Positions 29,711 to 34,600 of a DNA stretch of 41,890 bases are shown here, in pieces (position 1 is the first letter of the stretch; every line of letters begins with the position of its first letter). The notes below the pieces were generated by a model. The model made no database searches. It was not told the DNA's origin and saw only the letters and a program-made list of their open reading frames with translations. This stretch comes from Thermoplasmata archaeon (GTDB taxonomy: Archaea > Thermoplasmatota > Thermoplasmata > Lutacidiplasmatales > UBA184): NCBI GenBank assembly GCA_021821785.1, contig JAKACD010000010.1:1-41890 (forward strand). Direction: 5' to 3'. The position numbers and the translations under genes were made by a program.

Positions 29711-30052
29711 ATGGAGAACCCAGGTCCATCAAAGCCGCCGGTCAGTCGCGCTGTCGAGAGCGCCTTCACCAAGGTGTGGGGCGACGAGCATGTCGTGGCG
29801 CTGATTGCGCTCAAGGTCGAAACCGCCGAGGCGGACACCGTGGCGAGCGAGGTCGCGAAGTTCGCGGAGGTCGAGGACGTCTTCCTCGTGACCGGCGACA
29901 CCGACATCTTCCTCAAGGTCCGCTTCCCGCACTACGAGGAGCTGAAGGAGTTCGTGCTCCGCCGGCTTCCGGGCGTCCGCGGGATCCGCGAAACGAAGAC
30001 CCTGCTCGTCGTCACCGCCTACAAGGAAGCGGGGGAGACGCGGCCTGCATGA
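29711..30052 (+). CDS. Stand-alone Lrp/AsnC ligand-binding (RAM) domain protein
   Basis: 113 residues from ATG 29711 with GGAGAG five bases upstream. After a ~25-residue N-terminal region comes VVALIALKVETAEADTVASEVAKFAEVEDVFLVTGDTDIFLKV, a beta-alpha-beta RAM core. The final strand is RETKTLLVVTAYKE. No helix-turn-helix domain precedes it, so it does not bind DNA by itself; such proteins pair with Lrp-type regulators or sense amino acids. It overlaps the UPF0147 gene by four bases. Confidence 0.82.
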   Translation: MENPGPSKPPVSRAVESAFTKVWGDEHVVALIALKVETAEADTVASEVAKFAEVEDVFLVTGDTDIFLKVRFPHYEELKEFVLRRLPGVRGIRETKTLLVVTAYKEAGETRPA

Positions 30053-30366
30053 ACGCGCCGGCGACCCTTCCGGTCACGGGCCCTGCCGCGGTCCCCCCTC
30101 CGACCGGTCCCGGGGCGGAGAGCCCCGCGCTCCATCGCATCGTCGAGTCGCTGGCCCAGCTCGCCGGCGACTCTTCGGTCCCCCGCAACGTGCGCCGGGG
30201 GGCCCAGTCCGCGAAGGACGAACTCGCGAAGCCGCGCGTCGCGCTCGATGTCCGGATCGCGAGCGCGGTGTACGTCCTCGACGACCTCGCGAACGACCCG
30301 AACCTGCCCACCCACGGCCGCACGGCCATCTGGTCGATCATCTCGAGCTTGGAGAGCCTTCAGTGA
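30049..30366 (+). CDS. UPF0147 family protein
   Basis: 105 residues; ATG overlaps the previous stop (ATGA). After a Pro/Ala-rich N-terminus, SLAQLAGDSSVPRNVRRGAQSAKDEL and ALDVRIASAVYVLDDLANDPNLPTHGRTAIWSIISSLE match the small all-helical UPF0147 family found throughout archaea. Its function is unknown. It is the last protein gene before the tRNA-Lys and RNA polymerase cluster. Confidence 0.88.
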   Translation: MNAPATLPVTGPAAVPPPTGPGAESPALHRIVESLAQLAGDSSVPRNVRRGAQSAKDELAKPRVALDVRIASAVYVLDDLANDPNLPTHGRTAIWSIISSLESLQ

Positions 30367-30382
30367 GCCGCCACGGGCATAG

Positions 30383-30392
30383 GTTGAAATAC
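30383..30392 (+). promoter_or_regulatory. Probable promoter of tRNA-Lys (and possibly rpoH onward)
   Basis: GTTGAAATAC is the only AT-rich patch in the 59-base gap between UPF0147 and the tRNA. It lies about 38 bases upstream of tRNA position 1, giving a 5' leader of ~12 bases for RNase P. The match to a TATA box is moderate. Confidence 0.45.
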
Positions 30393-30447
30393 GGCGCCCG
30401 GGTCCCACCGGTCCGGATCGGGATCGGGCCCGTAGCTCAGTTAGGTT

Positions 30448-30476
30448 GGCCGGCGGGCACCGCCGCCGGTCCTACA
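30448..30476 (+). other. D-loop intron of tRNA-Lys (29 nt)
   Basis: The intron folds into a hairpin GCCGGCGG...CCGCCGGT. On its exon side, TAGG (30443-30446 in part) pairs with CCTA (30471-30474) as a 4-bp helix. The 5' side has a 3-nt bulge TTG and the 3' side a bulge CAA. Cutting each bulge after its second base gives exon ends ...GGTT and AAGAGC. The outer helix is weak, so this is a relaxed bulge-helix-bulge and the cut could be off by a base. Confidence 0.75.
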
Positions 30477-30516
30477 AAGAGCATCTGGCTTTTAACCAGG
30501 TGGTCGGGGGTTCGAA

Positions 30517-30554
30517 CGAGCGACCTCGCCGTCCGGGCGAAGTCGCTCCGGACG
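30517..30554 (+). other. T-loop intron of tRNA-Lys at position 59/60 (38 nt), canonical bulge-helix-bulge
   Basis: Outer helix: T-stem GGGGG/CCCCC. Central 4-bp helix: TTCG (30511-30514) with CGGA (30549-30552), one G-U pair. Bulges: AAC (30515-30517) and CGT (30553-30555). Inner helix: GAGCGAC (30518-30524) with GTCGCTC (30542-30548), extended by TCGCC/GGCGA around loop GTCCG. Cutting each bulge after its second base joins TTCGAA to TCCCCC and restores the universal T-loop. This matches archaeal splicing-endonuclease rules exactly. Confidence 0.9.
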
Positions 30555-30589
30555 TCCCCCCGGGCCCGTCCCGCTCCTCGGAGTACCGC

Positions 30590-30922
30590 ATGACCCCCTC
30601 CAGCATCCGCCGCACCCGCAAGAAGGTCGAAGCGCCCGCCGCACCGAAGCGTCCGTTCGTCGCCCACCATCTCGCCCCGCCCCACGAGATCCTCTCGGAG
30701 GCGGAATCCAACAAGGTCCTGGGAGAGATCGCCACGCCGGCGGAACGCCTCCCGAAGATCCTCGTCACCGACCCGGGGCTCAAGACCGATCCGAAGTACG
30801 AGGCGATGCGCGAGTCCGGGGAGAACCTCACCGGCCGCATCGTCCGCATCCGGCGGCCGAGCGCCACCGCGGGCGAGGCGATCGCCTATCGCTTGATCGT
30901 GCCCTCCGTAGGGGGAGATTGA
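30590..30922 (+). CDS. rpoH: DNA-directed RNA polymerase subunit H (Rpo5)
   Basis: 110 residues from ATG 30590, with GGAG six bases upstream. After a basic N-terminal ~25 residues (more than usual), VAHHLAPPHEILSEAESNKVL, RLPKILVTDPGL and SATAGEAIAYRLIVPS match the archaeal H subunit, homologous to the C-terminal half of eukaryotic RPB5. It opens the polymerase cluster, six bases ahead of rpoB. No TATA box separates it from the tRNA upstream. Confidence 0.95.
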   Translation: MTPSSIRRTRKKVEAPAAPKRPFVAHHLAPPHEILSEAESNKVLGEIATPAERLPKILVTDPGLKTDPKYEAMRESGENLTGRIVRIRRPSATAGEAIAYRLIVPSVGGD

Positions 30923-30928
30923 AGGTCC

Positions 30929-33900
30929 ATGCGCGAAATCGTCGACGGCTTCTTCCGAGAGCGATCCATCGTCAACCACCACCTCGCGAGCTTCAACGAC
31001 TTCCTGCCCACGAAGGACAACCCGAACTCGCGGATGCAGCGCATCGTCGACGAGGCGCGCGTCAGCGAGGATTCCACCGAGCGCGGGGTCATCCGCCTGG
31101 ACGTCCAGAAGACGAAGAGCTCGATCTACGTGCGGGTCGGGCGCCGTCGGGACGCGCGCGGCAACGTGAATCCGTCGGCCGAGCCGACGATCTTCATCGG
31201 GGCTCCGTTCGTCAAGGAGCCGGTCGGCTCGAAGCCGACGCTGACCCCGATGGAGGCCCGCCTGAGGAACCTCACCTACCAGGCCCCGATCTACCTCAAG
31301 GTCACGGTCGTGGAGAACGGCGTCGAGCGGGCGCCCGAGGACGTCCACATCGGCGACCTTCCGATCATGGTCAAGAGCCGTCCGTGCAACCTCAACCGCT
31401 ACAAGATCAGCGAGGACGACCAGATCTGGCTCTCGGACGACGAGTACCGCGCGAAGCTGGTCGAGTACGGCGAGGATCCGCTCGACCCCGGAGGGTACTT
31501 CATCATCGGCGGCACGGAGCGGGTCATCATCAGCCTCGAGGACCTCGCACCGAACCGCATTTTCGCCGAGTTCAACGAGCGCTACGGCACCCCGATCGAG
31601 AGCGCGAAGGTCTTCAGCCAGCGCGGCGGCTACCGGTCGCTGACGGTCGTCGAGAAGAAGAAGGACGGCGTGCTCCAGGTCGGCGTCCCGACGGCGAGCG
31701 GGCAGATCCCGCTCGTGGTCCTGATGAAGGCCCTCGGGATGAAGAACGACGAGGAGATCTTCCAGGCGGTCCTGGGAGAGCTCCTCCCGCTGGACGAACC
31801 GTTCGTCCAGACGATGAAGCACCTTCTGAACGTCAACCTCGAGGAGTGCGTCTCGAAGAAGGCGTATCCCCCCGAGGGGATCCTCACGACCGAGGACGCC
31901 CTCATCTTCCTCGAGAAGAAGTTCGCGACCGGGCAGGCCAAGGAGTACCGGCAGCGGAAGGTCGACGGGATCCTCGATCGCTCGCTCCTGCCGCACCTCG
32001 GCGACACGAAGGCCGACCGCCTGAAGAAGGCGCTCTACCTCGCGCGGATGGCCCGAACGGTCCTCGAGCTCCACCTCAAGGTGCGGGGCGAGGACGACAA
32101 GGACCACTACGCGAACAAGCGCCTCAAGCTCGCGGGCGACCTCATGGAGGACCTGTTCCGGGTCGCCTTCTCGCTGCTCCTGAAGGACCTCAAGTACCAG
32201 CTCGAGCGCTCGTTCGCGCGCAAGAAGGACCTTCGGATCGCGAGCGCTATCCGGCCCGACCTGCTCACGCAGCGGCTCGTCCACGCGCTCGCGACGGGGA
32301 ACTGGGTCGGTGGCCGTGCCGGGGTGAGCCAGGTGCTCGACCGGACGAGCCACATGTCGACGATCAGCCATCTTCGGCGGGTCACGAGCCCCCTCACCCG
32401 CAGCCAGCCGCACTTCGAGGCCCGCGACCTCCACCCGACGCAGTGGGGCCGTCTCTGCCCGAACGAGACCCCCGAGGGCCAGAACTGCGGGCTCGTGAAG
32501 AACTACGCGCTCGCGGTCGACGTCTCCGAAGGGGCGGACGAGGAGGAGGTCGCCCTCATCCTGCGCGATTTGAACACCCGCGAGATCGGCCCCGAGGTCT
32601 TCCAGGAAGGCGCCGCCCCGAAAGGCAAGCGCGCCGCCCGGGTCTACGTCAACGGGAACCTGGTCGGTCTCCACTCCCAGCCGGTCGAGCTCGTCAAGGA
32701 GATCCGCGAGCGGCGTCGCACGGGGACCCTCTCCCCGACGCTCGGCGACAAGACCTACGAGATCAACGTCCGCTACGACGACGAGATGAACGAGGTCATC
32801 GTCCACTGCGACTCCGGTCGCCTTCGTCGCCCGCTCATCGTCGTGAAGAACGGGGTCCCCCGGACCTCCCGCTCCGACCTCGATGAGCTCGCGCGGGGCA
32901 CGCTGTCGTTCAGCGACCTCATCCGCCAGGGGAAGATCGAGTGGATCGACGCGGAAGAGGAAGAGGACGCGCTCATCGCGGTCGAGCCGTTCGTGCCGCC
33001 GGACCGCTGCCCGAAGTGCGAGAAGGCGCTGAGCCGCAGCGACACCCGCTGGATGTCGATGGGGGACAAGGGCGATCAGGTCTCGGTCGAGTGCGGCCGC
33101 TGCCACTCGGAGTTCCCCACCGCAAGCCTGCTCCACGACCGCTACACGCACCTCGAAATCGACCCGAACCTCATGCTCGGAGTCTGCACGGGGCTCATCC
33201 CGTATCCGGAGCACAACGCTGCGCCGCGCAATACGATGGGCTCGGGGATGGCCAAGCAGGCGCTGGGGGTCGAGTCGGTCAACTATCGGCGGCGTCCCGA
33301 CACGCGGGGGCACCTGCTCCACTACCCGCAGGCGCCGTTGCTCCAGACTCAGACGATGCGCTACGTCCACTTCACCGAGCGGCCCGCGGGGCAGAACTTC
33401 GTGGTCGCGGTCCTCTCCTACGAGGGGTACAACATGCAGGACGCCCTCGTCTTCTCGAAGGGTGCGATCGACCGGGGTCTCGGTCGTTCGTCGTTCTTCC
33501 GGACGTACCGGGGGGAGGAGCGCAAGTACCCGGGCGGTCAGGAAGACCGCTTCGAGATCCCGCGACCGGATGTCGCCGGGGCGCGGGTCGATACCGCCTA
33601 CCGGAACCTCGGCGAGGACGGGCTGATCTTCCCCGAGCTCGAGGTCTCCGAGGGGGATGTCCTGGTCGGGAAGACCAGCCCGCCCCGCTTCCTCGAGGAG
33701 AAGACCGATCTCCTGACCCCGCAGAAGCGCCGGGAGACGAGCGTCACCGTCCGCTTCGGGGAGTCCGGCTGGGTCGACAATGTCATCCTGACCGAGGGGG
33801 AGAACATCTCGAAGCTCGTCAAGGTCAAGGTGCGCAACCAGCGGGTCCCTGAGCTGGGGGACAAGTTCGCGAGCCGGCACGGCCAGAAGGGGGTCATCGG

Positions 33901-34600
33901 TCTCATCGTGCCGCAGGAGAACCTGCCGTTCACGCGGGACGGGATCACCCCGGACCTTCTGATCAACCCGCACGCGATCCCGTCCCGGATGACGGTCGCC
34001 CACGTCCTCGAGATGCTGGGCGGCAAGGTCGGGGCCCTCGAAGGGCACACGGTCGACGGCACGGCGTTCTCGGGGGCGCGCGAGGAGGCGCTCCGGGAGG
34101 GGTTGAAGGCGCTCGGCCTCCACCCGTCCGGCCGAGAGACCCTGTACGACGGTCTGACGGGTCGACGGTTCGAGGCGGAGATCTTCGTCGGCGTGATCTA
34201 CTACCAGAAGCTGCACCACATGGTCGCGGGCAAGATGCACATGCGCTCCCGCGGTCCGGTGCAGATCCTGACCCGCCAGCCGACCGAAGGGCGCTCGCGC
34301 CAGGGCGGTCTGCGATTCGGTGAGATGGAGCGCGACTGTCTGATCGGCCACGGGGTCGCGATGGTGATCAAGGACCGGTTGCTCGATGAGTCCGACGGCA
34401 CGATCCAGTACGTCTGCGGGAACCCCGAGTGCGGCCACATCGCGATCCCGGACACCCGGGCGAGCTCGCTCCGGTGCCCGAGCTGCGGGAACACCTCCTC
34501 GATCTACCCGGTCGAGATGAGCTACTCGTTCAAGCTCCTCCTCGAGGAGCTGATCAGCATGGGCGTGATCATGCGCCTGCAGCTCGAGGAGATGCGGTAG
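30929..34600 (+). CDS. rpoB: DNA-directed RNA polymerase subunit B, unsplit (Rpo2)
   Basis: 1223 residues, a single chain covering both B'' and B' that many methanogens, Archaeoglobus and haloarchaea encode separately. [12 protein letters not shown] at the N-terminus, [11 protein letters not shown] and [17 protein letters not shown] in the fork/lobe region, and [15 protein letters not shown] near 976 are catalytic-core motifs. Zinc sites appear as CPKCEKAL with CGRCHSEF, and [11 protein letters not shown] with CPSCGNTSS at the C-terminus. The subunit forms much of the active centre and upstream cleft. A GGGGGAGATTGAAGG stretch upstream serves as ribosome site. Confidence 0.97.

Follow-up and report, generated by a model that had tools for sequence, protein, structure and literature searches.

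Does the segment at 30426-30568 (+) of the window, the whole 41,890-nt stretch of DNA from a soil-dwelling Thermoplasmata archaeon analysed here, hold a working tRNA-Lys(UUU) gene, and how would its transcript be turned into a tRNA? The preliminary description of this DNA had placed a tRNA-Lys(UUU) gene there, with junctions joining 30447 to 30477 and 30516 to 30555, and had held it to be unable to fold as a tRNA in its unspliced form and a 76-nt tRNA-Lys once two segments are removed. The coordinates and both junctions proved exact, the BHB rule giving the same ones, and ARAGORN rejects the unspliced form and accepts the spliced one.

Layout of the gene and its neighbours

The 143-nt pre-tRNA-Lys(UUU) gene carries two introns in a layout that is kept in relatives: GGGCCCGTAGCTCAGTTAGGTT, a 29-nt intron, AAGAGC...TTCGAA, a 38-nt intron, and TCCCCCCGGGCCCG. 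The gene and its surroundings comprise the following features:

30049..30366 (+): upstream gene, UPF0147 (PF03685)
30385..30392 (+): TATA-like element TGAAATAC at -41 to -34, each base at 78-89% across 94 loci of the order Lutacidiplasmatales
30426..30447 (+): exon 1, with the acceptor 5′ strand, the D-stem 5′ strand and most of the D-loop
30448..30476 (+): D-loop intron, 29 nt, 3′ end uncertain by one base (minimum-free-energy BHB fold; covariation)
30477..30516 (+): exon 2, with the anticodon arm, variable region, T-stem 5′ strand and T-loop up to position 59
30491..30493 (+): anticodon TTT (UUU), from ARAGORN on the spliced form and an anticodon-arm match at 30485-30499
30517..30554 (+): T-loop intron at 59/60, 38 nt (covariance model R1; covariation)
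30555..30568 (+): exon 3, with T60, the T-stem 3′ strand, the acceptor 3′ strand and the discriminator G
30590..30922 (+): downstream gene rpoH, Rpb5 C-terminal domain (PF01191)
30929..34600 (+): rpoB, a single fused subunit (seven Rpb2 domains)

Downstream of tRNA-Lys(UUU), rpoH is found in 92 of the 94 order loci.

ARAGORN reports 0 genes in the unspliced sequence, nothing when the D intron alone is removed, and a wrong ‘tRNA-Stop(tta)’ when the T intron alone is removed. Removal of both introns (30448-30476 and 30517-30554) yields a full cloverleaf of 76 nt, called as tRNA-Lys(ttt). An Rfam search of the window at the gathering score returned no tRNA, leaving this gene unmatched; the expectation that a standard search would miss it is thus borne out by ARAGORN and by Rfam at its tRNA gathering score. 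The placement of the introns in the D-loop and T-loop rather than at 37/38 also holds, with sequence, BHB geometry and relatives in agreement and the T site at 59/60.

Splice motifs and splicing enzymes

Both introns present the BHB motif, a 4-bp helix between two 3-nt bulges, and the helices are kept in relatives:

30442..30445 with 30471-30474 (+): D-intron central helix, UAGG with CCUA
30446-30448 and 30475-30477 (+): D-intron bulges, 5′ UUG and 3′ CAA
30449-30456 with 30463-30470 (+): D-intron inner helix, 8 bp
30506-30510 with 30556-30560 (+): T-intron outer helix, which is the T-stem GGGGG/CCCCC, 5/5 paired
30511..30514 with 30549-30552 (+): T-intron central helix, UUCG with CGGA
30515-30517 and 30553-30555 (+): T-intron bulges, AAC and CGU
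30518-30524 with 30542-30548 (+): T-intron inner helix, GAGCGAC/GUCGCUC

The T intron is of the strict form, with an intact outer helix and 4-bp/3-nt geometry, and this strict BHB sits 1.7 kcal/mol above the lowest fold of the T-arm. Among 89 distinct order loci, the central helix is 4/4 paired in 81, the inner helix is at least 4/5 paired in 84 (random re-pairing: mean 35.9, maximum 50), and T60 is kept in all 89. A structure count over 32 T-loop introns gave a covariation of 0.528, vs. 0.166 when shuffled and at most 0.157 in slid versions. The covariance model R1 was built on alignment A2, consisting of 42 T-loop introns minus ten rows shifted by one base, and a second model, R2, let those ten rows re-enter through an R1 search; the Lys T intron scores 37.4 bits with R1, to whose training set it belongs.

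In tRNAs with A57, T-loop introns show a central-helix mismatch at that base. Of the 12 A57 cases listed, 11 have G at the opposite position and one has A, a regular purine-purine mismatch adjoining the bulge. The T-loop introns of tRNA-Asn have one or two mismatches.

In the D-arm, the minimum-free-energy fold is the BHB itself, and an internal loop (3 nt and 4 nt) separates its central helix from the D-stem; with the outer helix so interrupted, the motif is a relaxed one. Among 90 distinct loci, the central helix is fully paired in 89 (random re-pairing: mean 42, maximum 57) and the inner helix at least 4/5 paired in 87 (mean 68.9, maximum 78). The 4-bp/3-nt rule places the 3′ junction at 30476|30477, and a 5-bp central helix would place it at 30477|30478. 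The lengthening pair is absent from the window sequence and is Watson-Crick in 50 of the 90 distinct loci, vs. a shuffled mean of 30.7 and maximum of 44. This part of the covariation favours the 5-bp helix, and the 3′ end assigned here may be off by one base.

The window’s genome (G000) contains one EndA gene (G000:C98:19363-20163), encoding a protein of 354 aa, counted from an assumed start codon, in which PF02778 and PF01974 each cover two stretches, both PF01974 matches lying within one ORF. Matches to PF01974 occur in 96 of the 106 genomes of the order. By domain make-up this EndA is a single two-repeat α′ protein, and neither separate α and β genes nor the three-unit ε form describes it. 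Residues 66-336 align with Archaeoglobus EndA, and the protein, the only one aligned, has no specificity loop, its YGSRVGD being short like the YGSEKGD of A. fulgidus (1r0v, 305 aa). The chain 3p1y (315 aa) has an insertion at the site where the G000 protein is short; its length and a review’s account of such a graft suggest that it is the CSL-graft variant (PMC6379350). For RtcB there is one match in the genome (G000:C62:4584-5888), and the ligase is also present in the relative G042. A review classes the α′2 enzymes of Archaeoglobus and Thermoplasma as narrow (PMC6379350), which, together with the relaxed D motif, counts against the spliced reading; the homodimeric Ferroplasma enzyme can cleave a minimal BHB at 30 °C (PMC8707768). 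Where the T-loop has UUCG, most introns have a predicted strict motif and could be cleaved by an α′2-type enzyme; the predicted motifs are looser in the D intron, in the introns of tRNA-Asn and in T-arms with A57.

With the anatomy of the gene, its conservation and covariation, the conserved promoter-like element upstream and both enzymes established, this is very probably a working tRNA-Lys(UUU) gene whose two introns are spliced out by proteins. Its RNA would fold with one additional hairpin in the D-loop and another in the T-loop, each offering a 4-bp helix flanked by two 3-nt bulges. In the T-arm, the T-stem would serve as the outer helix and U54-U55-C56-G57 of the T-loop as one strand of the central helix. 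The single α′-type EndA would cut inside each bulge, and RtcB would join the exons into a 76-nt tRNA reading AAA. What we infer from sequence is that the gene is transcribed, that its transcript is cut and rejoined, and where exactly the D intron is cut at its 3′ end. Since the T-stem and TTCRA loop differ little among tRNAs, almost any tRNA could have an intron with matching end bases spliced out of it, in keeping with the 13 tRNA genes of this genome that carry T-loop introns.

T-loop and D-loop introns in other tRNA genes

The 13 T-loop introns of G000 occupy about a third of its tRNA genes: Arg(TCT), Arg(TCG), Gly(TCC), Ser(GCT), Ser(GGA), Ser(CGA), Gln(CTG), Ala(GGC), Asp(GTC), Asn(GTT), Lys(TTT), His(GTG) and Leu(TAG). 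The total of about 40 tRNA loci is made up of 37 Rfam matches (E up to 10), including one copy truncated by the end of its contig, and of Lys(UUU), Leu(UAG) and His(GUG), which the Rfam tRNA search missed. The relative G042 (100% complete) has 14 T-loop introns, Glu(CTC) being the additional one, among about 43 tRNA loci (42 Rfam matches with E up to 10, Lys included, plus Leu).

D-loop introns interrupt the initiator Met and Arg(GCG) tRNAs of both G000 (L026, L268) and G042 (L292, L277); their layout resembles that of the Lys D intron. The tRNA-Leu(UAG) of G000 (L269, from base 339), directly downstream of tRNA-Gln(CUG), carries a T-loop intron and a 24-nt D-loop intron whose 6-bp inner helix is fully paired, and removal of both gives 86 nt that ARAGORN calls tRNA-Leu(tag). 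G000 therefore has two doubly interrupted tRNAs, Lys and Leu, and the same two-intron layout is seen by eye in tRNA-Leu(UAG) of G042 (L279, from base 344). The survey of other tRNAs suggested in the preliminary description, carried out in part, thus brought 12 further introns at the T-loop site and three in D-loops (initiator Met, Arg(GCG) and Leu(UAG)). Two loci that our tRNA decoder read wrongly (L007, L023) are ordinary tRNAs by ARAGORN, two that it left undecoded (L180, L298) are tRNAs by Rfam score, and for L025, L274, L282 and L293 it gave the neighbouring tRNA; the introns of these four were read separately where needed.

The covariance models of a T-arm with intron (R1, R2) gave 12 matches in G000 and 13 in G042, and a class-wide survey gave at least one match in 228 of 380 genomes. 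In the window’s family, the 88 genomes listed with matches have a median of 9 (range 3-12); three genomes of the sister families f2 and f3 have 1, 2 and 2, and the other families listed with matches have 1-4 each. These counts are floors, since only 16 or at most 42 candidates were scored per genome; genomes without a match are partly listed. R2 was trained on introns of G000, G042 and other families, so matches there are not independent. Outside the window’s family, 19 loci of 16 genomes were inspected by eye, and tRNA contexts are present there. As a partial control among families with an intact Lys gene, genomes of f15 and f19 are listed without a match, and one f15 genome (G295) has a weak one. 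Genomes of f8 have a match, which in the three that were read (L345, L346, L347), with Lys(UUU) intact by pattern, is a short, real T-loop intron in tRNA-Arg(UCU).

Distribution among relatives and alternative readings

A core pattern for the interrupted tRNA-Lys(UUU) matched 89 of the 106 Lutacidiplasmatales genomes, and a looser pattern added five. From 92 of these 94 genomes, the window’s included and G016 and G100 left out, 94 loci (90 distinct) were decoded; the D intron is present in every one of them and the T intron in 93, and across them the intron sequences vary while the helices stay. Among the 17 genomes missed by the core pattern, five match the looser one, ten do not, and two (G093, G097) lie outside the looser sample. 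These 17 are 56-91% complete, and assembly gaps may be the cause for some. A natural empty site is found in G004, which lacks the T intron only and has the junction exactly as predicted (L168). The D-loop empty site is inexact: in family f9, D-loops without the intron fall one or two bases short of the predicted junction. One genome, G091, has three tRNA-Lys(UUU) loci (L140, L141, L142), all doubly interrupted; it may be a mixed bin.

An RpoB scan of named genomes, taken as the best 80 of 539 matches, included Candidatus Lutacidiplasma silvani (L192), and on this ground the window was assigned to Lutacidiplasmatales; its G+C content of 70% agrees with the value of roughly 69% for Lutacidiplasma (PMC9287336). 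The tRNA pattern occurs at 47 of those 80 loci. Twelve of the 47 were assigned outside the order by an RpoB identity of at most 68% and, for some, by sequence shared with loci of other families; 11 of the twelve have both introns, some of them named Methanomassiliicoccus sp., and L257 has the D intron only. L224 and L232, from metagenome assemblies named Methanomassiliicoccus, also show the pair. Of 33 loci picked from other families of the class, the pair is complete in 24, reduced to the D intron in one and to the T intron in four, and absent from four. Within f9, some genomes have both introns and others the T intron only (L152-L166). Class-wide pattern searches, the order included, matched the core form in 303, an intact T-loop in 142 (with false matches among them: the Lys(CUU) gene of G109, the intron-bearing G374 and G392, and some second matches) and an intact D-loop in 146 of 400 genomes, indicating that some families often lack the introns. 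The tRNA-Lys(UUU) genes of G452 and G436, which belong to another class of the phylum, have a T-loop intron and an intact D-loop. A published phylogeny groups the Lutacidiplasmatales with the Methanomassiliicoccales and three other orders (PMC9287336), a grouping that fits a shared ancestral double-intron state; the word ‘intron’ does not occur in the main text of that paper.

The preliminary description had called this double interruption unusual. It is so against the published rule for Euryarchaeota, whose tRNAs are described as having a single intron at the canonical site (PMC4090602) and among which three thermophilic methanogens are named beside an almost exclusively crenarchaeal set of non-canonical introns (PMC3218864). 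Within its own order the double interruption is normal, and several other families of the class share both introns. BHB tRNA introns are a known kind; the lineage, the enzyme type and the abundance of the T-loop site run contrary to the expectation of reviews, which tie multiple or non-canonical tRNA introns to heterotetrameric or ε2 endonucleases with an added loop. The introns of Thermoproteales, other Crenarchaeota and Thaumarchaeota are alike in being short BHB introns outside 37/38, with cases of two in one tRNA, and introns moving between tRNA genes are known from Fujishima 2010 as described in PMC4390854. Unlike in those groups, the T-loop site is dominant in the two genomes catalogued here (G000, G042), and the enzyme is a two-repeat α′ protein without the loop, whereas Crenarchaeota and Thaumarchaeota have a heterotetramer, with a specificity-broadening loop in Crenarchaea (PMC6379350). 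The 37/38 introns of Euryarchaeota with α4 or α′2 EndA (Archaeoglobus, Thermoplasma, Ferroplasma) resemble the Lys(UUU) case in enzyme type by domain make-up and in the strict 4-bp/3-nt geometry, matched by the Lys T-arm, but differ from it in intron position and number.

A branch of the Thermoplasmatota, Methanomassiliicoccus included, thus carries such introns, with an α′ enzyme lacking the loop in the window’s genome. Intron position is separable from motif type, as a strict BHB can form in a T-arm. Our literature search found no paper on such introns in Thermoplasmata, Methanomassiliicoccus or Thermoplasmatota. With one intron model trained on Crenarchaeota and Euryarchaeota, tRNAscan-SE 2.0 found 673 non-canonical introns in 217 archaeal genomes (PMC8450103), so its tables may already list some of the present ones. 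With tools that leave introns of this kind unmodelled, the tRNA annotation of these genomes is likely incomplete.

The lineage offers a tracing of intron gain, copying and loss over hundreds of genomes. Introns of the same tRNA in G000 and G042 are more alike (mean score 11.3) than those of different tRNAs (3.6), so the gains of introns present in both are probably older than the split between the two; this comparison shows no copying from one tRNA to another. In G452, of another class, tRNA-Gly(UCC) (L340) and tRNA-Arg(CCU) (L341) have an identical 45-nt T-loop intron, which looks like a recent copy. Tentatively, the Thermoplasmatota T-loop intron may be a site-specific mobile element of the tRNA set, copied among T-loop sites until, in Lutacidiplasmatales, about a third of the tRNA genes had it. 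Half of the splice motif would come from the T-stem and TTCRA loop, which are near-universal, and an α′2 endonuclease without a broad-specificity loop would handle all copies. The ancestral intron was perhaps that of tRNA-Lys(UUU), the sole tRNA traced across families.

An unlikely alternative is that the introns are retained for a use of their own, such as guiding modification or shielding the tRNA 3′ half from integrases. A T-loop intron splits the 3′ half of the tRNA gene that integrases use as a landing site. The occupation of this site in many tRNAs would agree with shielding, as would tRNA genes serving as integration sites, a subject named in a title in the reference list of PMC3218864, yet several families have one Lys intron or neither, so the introns are dispensable.

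The reading of a working, spliced tRNA-Lys(UUU) gene must also be weighed against that of a decayed or disrupted pseudogene whose function is supplied elsewhere, for example by tRNA-Lys(CUU). The genome has two intact, intronless tRNA-Lys(CUU) genes (L011, L012), and AAA codons are rare (1 AAA vs. 115 AAG in five window frames), so a poor Lys(UUU) copy might be tolerated. A CUU anticodon cannot read AAA by standard pairing rules, however, and an anticodon-arm pattern, which a Lys(UUU) copy with an anticodon-loop intron would evade, gave a single match at up to two mismatches in the whole genome (91% complete); the intact second tRNA-Lys(UUU) that the preliminary description had thought of as counter-evidence was not found by it. 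The exons and helices are moreover kept while the intron sequence varies over 90 distinct loci. That both introns recur in relatives at unchanged positions, and with helices that covary, argues against a pseudogene or an assembly error and indicates that neither insertion is due to chance; we regard a pseudogene as highly improbable.

An assembly or binning artefact has practically no probability left: every named relative close to the window is a metagenome assembly, but the same two insertion sites recur with differing sequences in 92 order genomes including the window’s, and in other families including the single-contig G160 and G240, and so many independent assemblies refute it.

Two further candidates were rejected. 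Introns of 29 and 38 nt are too short for a group I or II ribozyme core, and the Rfam search at the gathering score gave no match to a group I or II self-splicing intron in the window. A split or permuted tRNA is incompatible with exons colinear within 143 nt. The permuted tRNAs of Thermofilum pendens and Cyanidioschyzon share the 59/60 T-loop joint (PMC3218864); their exons are reordered, whereas here the exon order is normal, with an insertion between.
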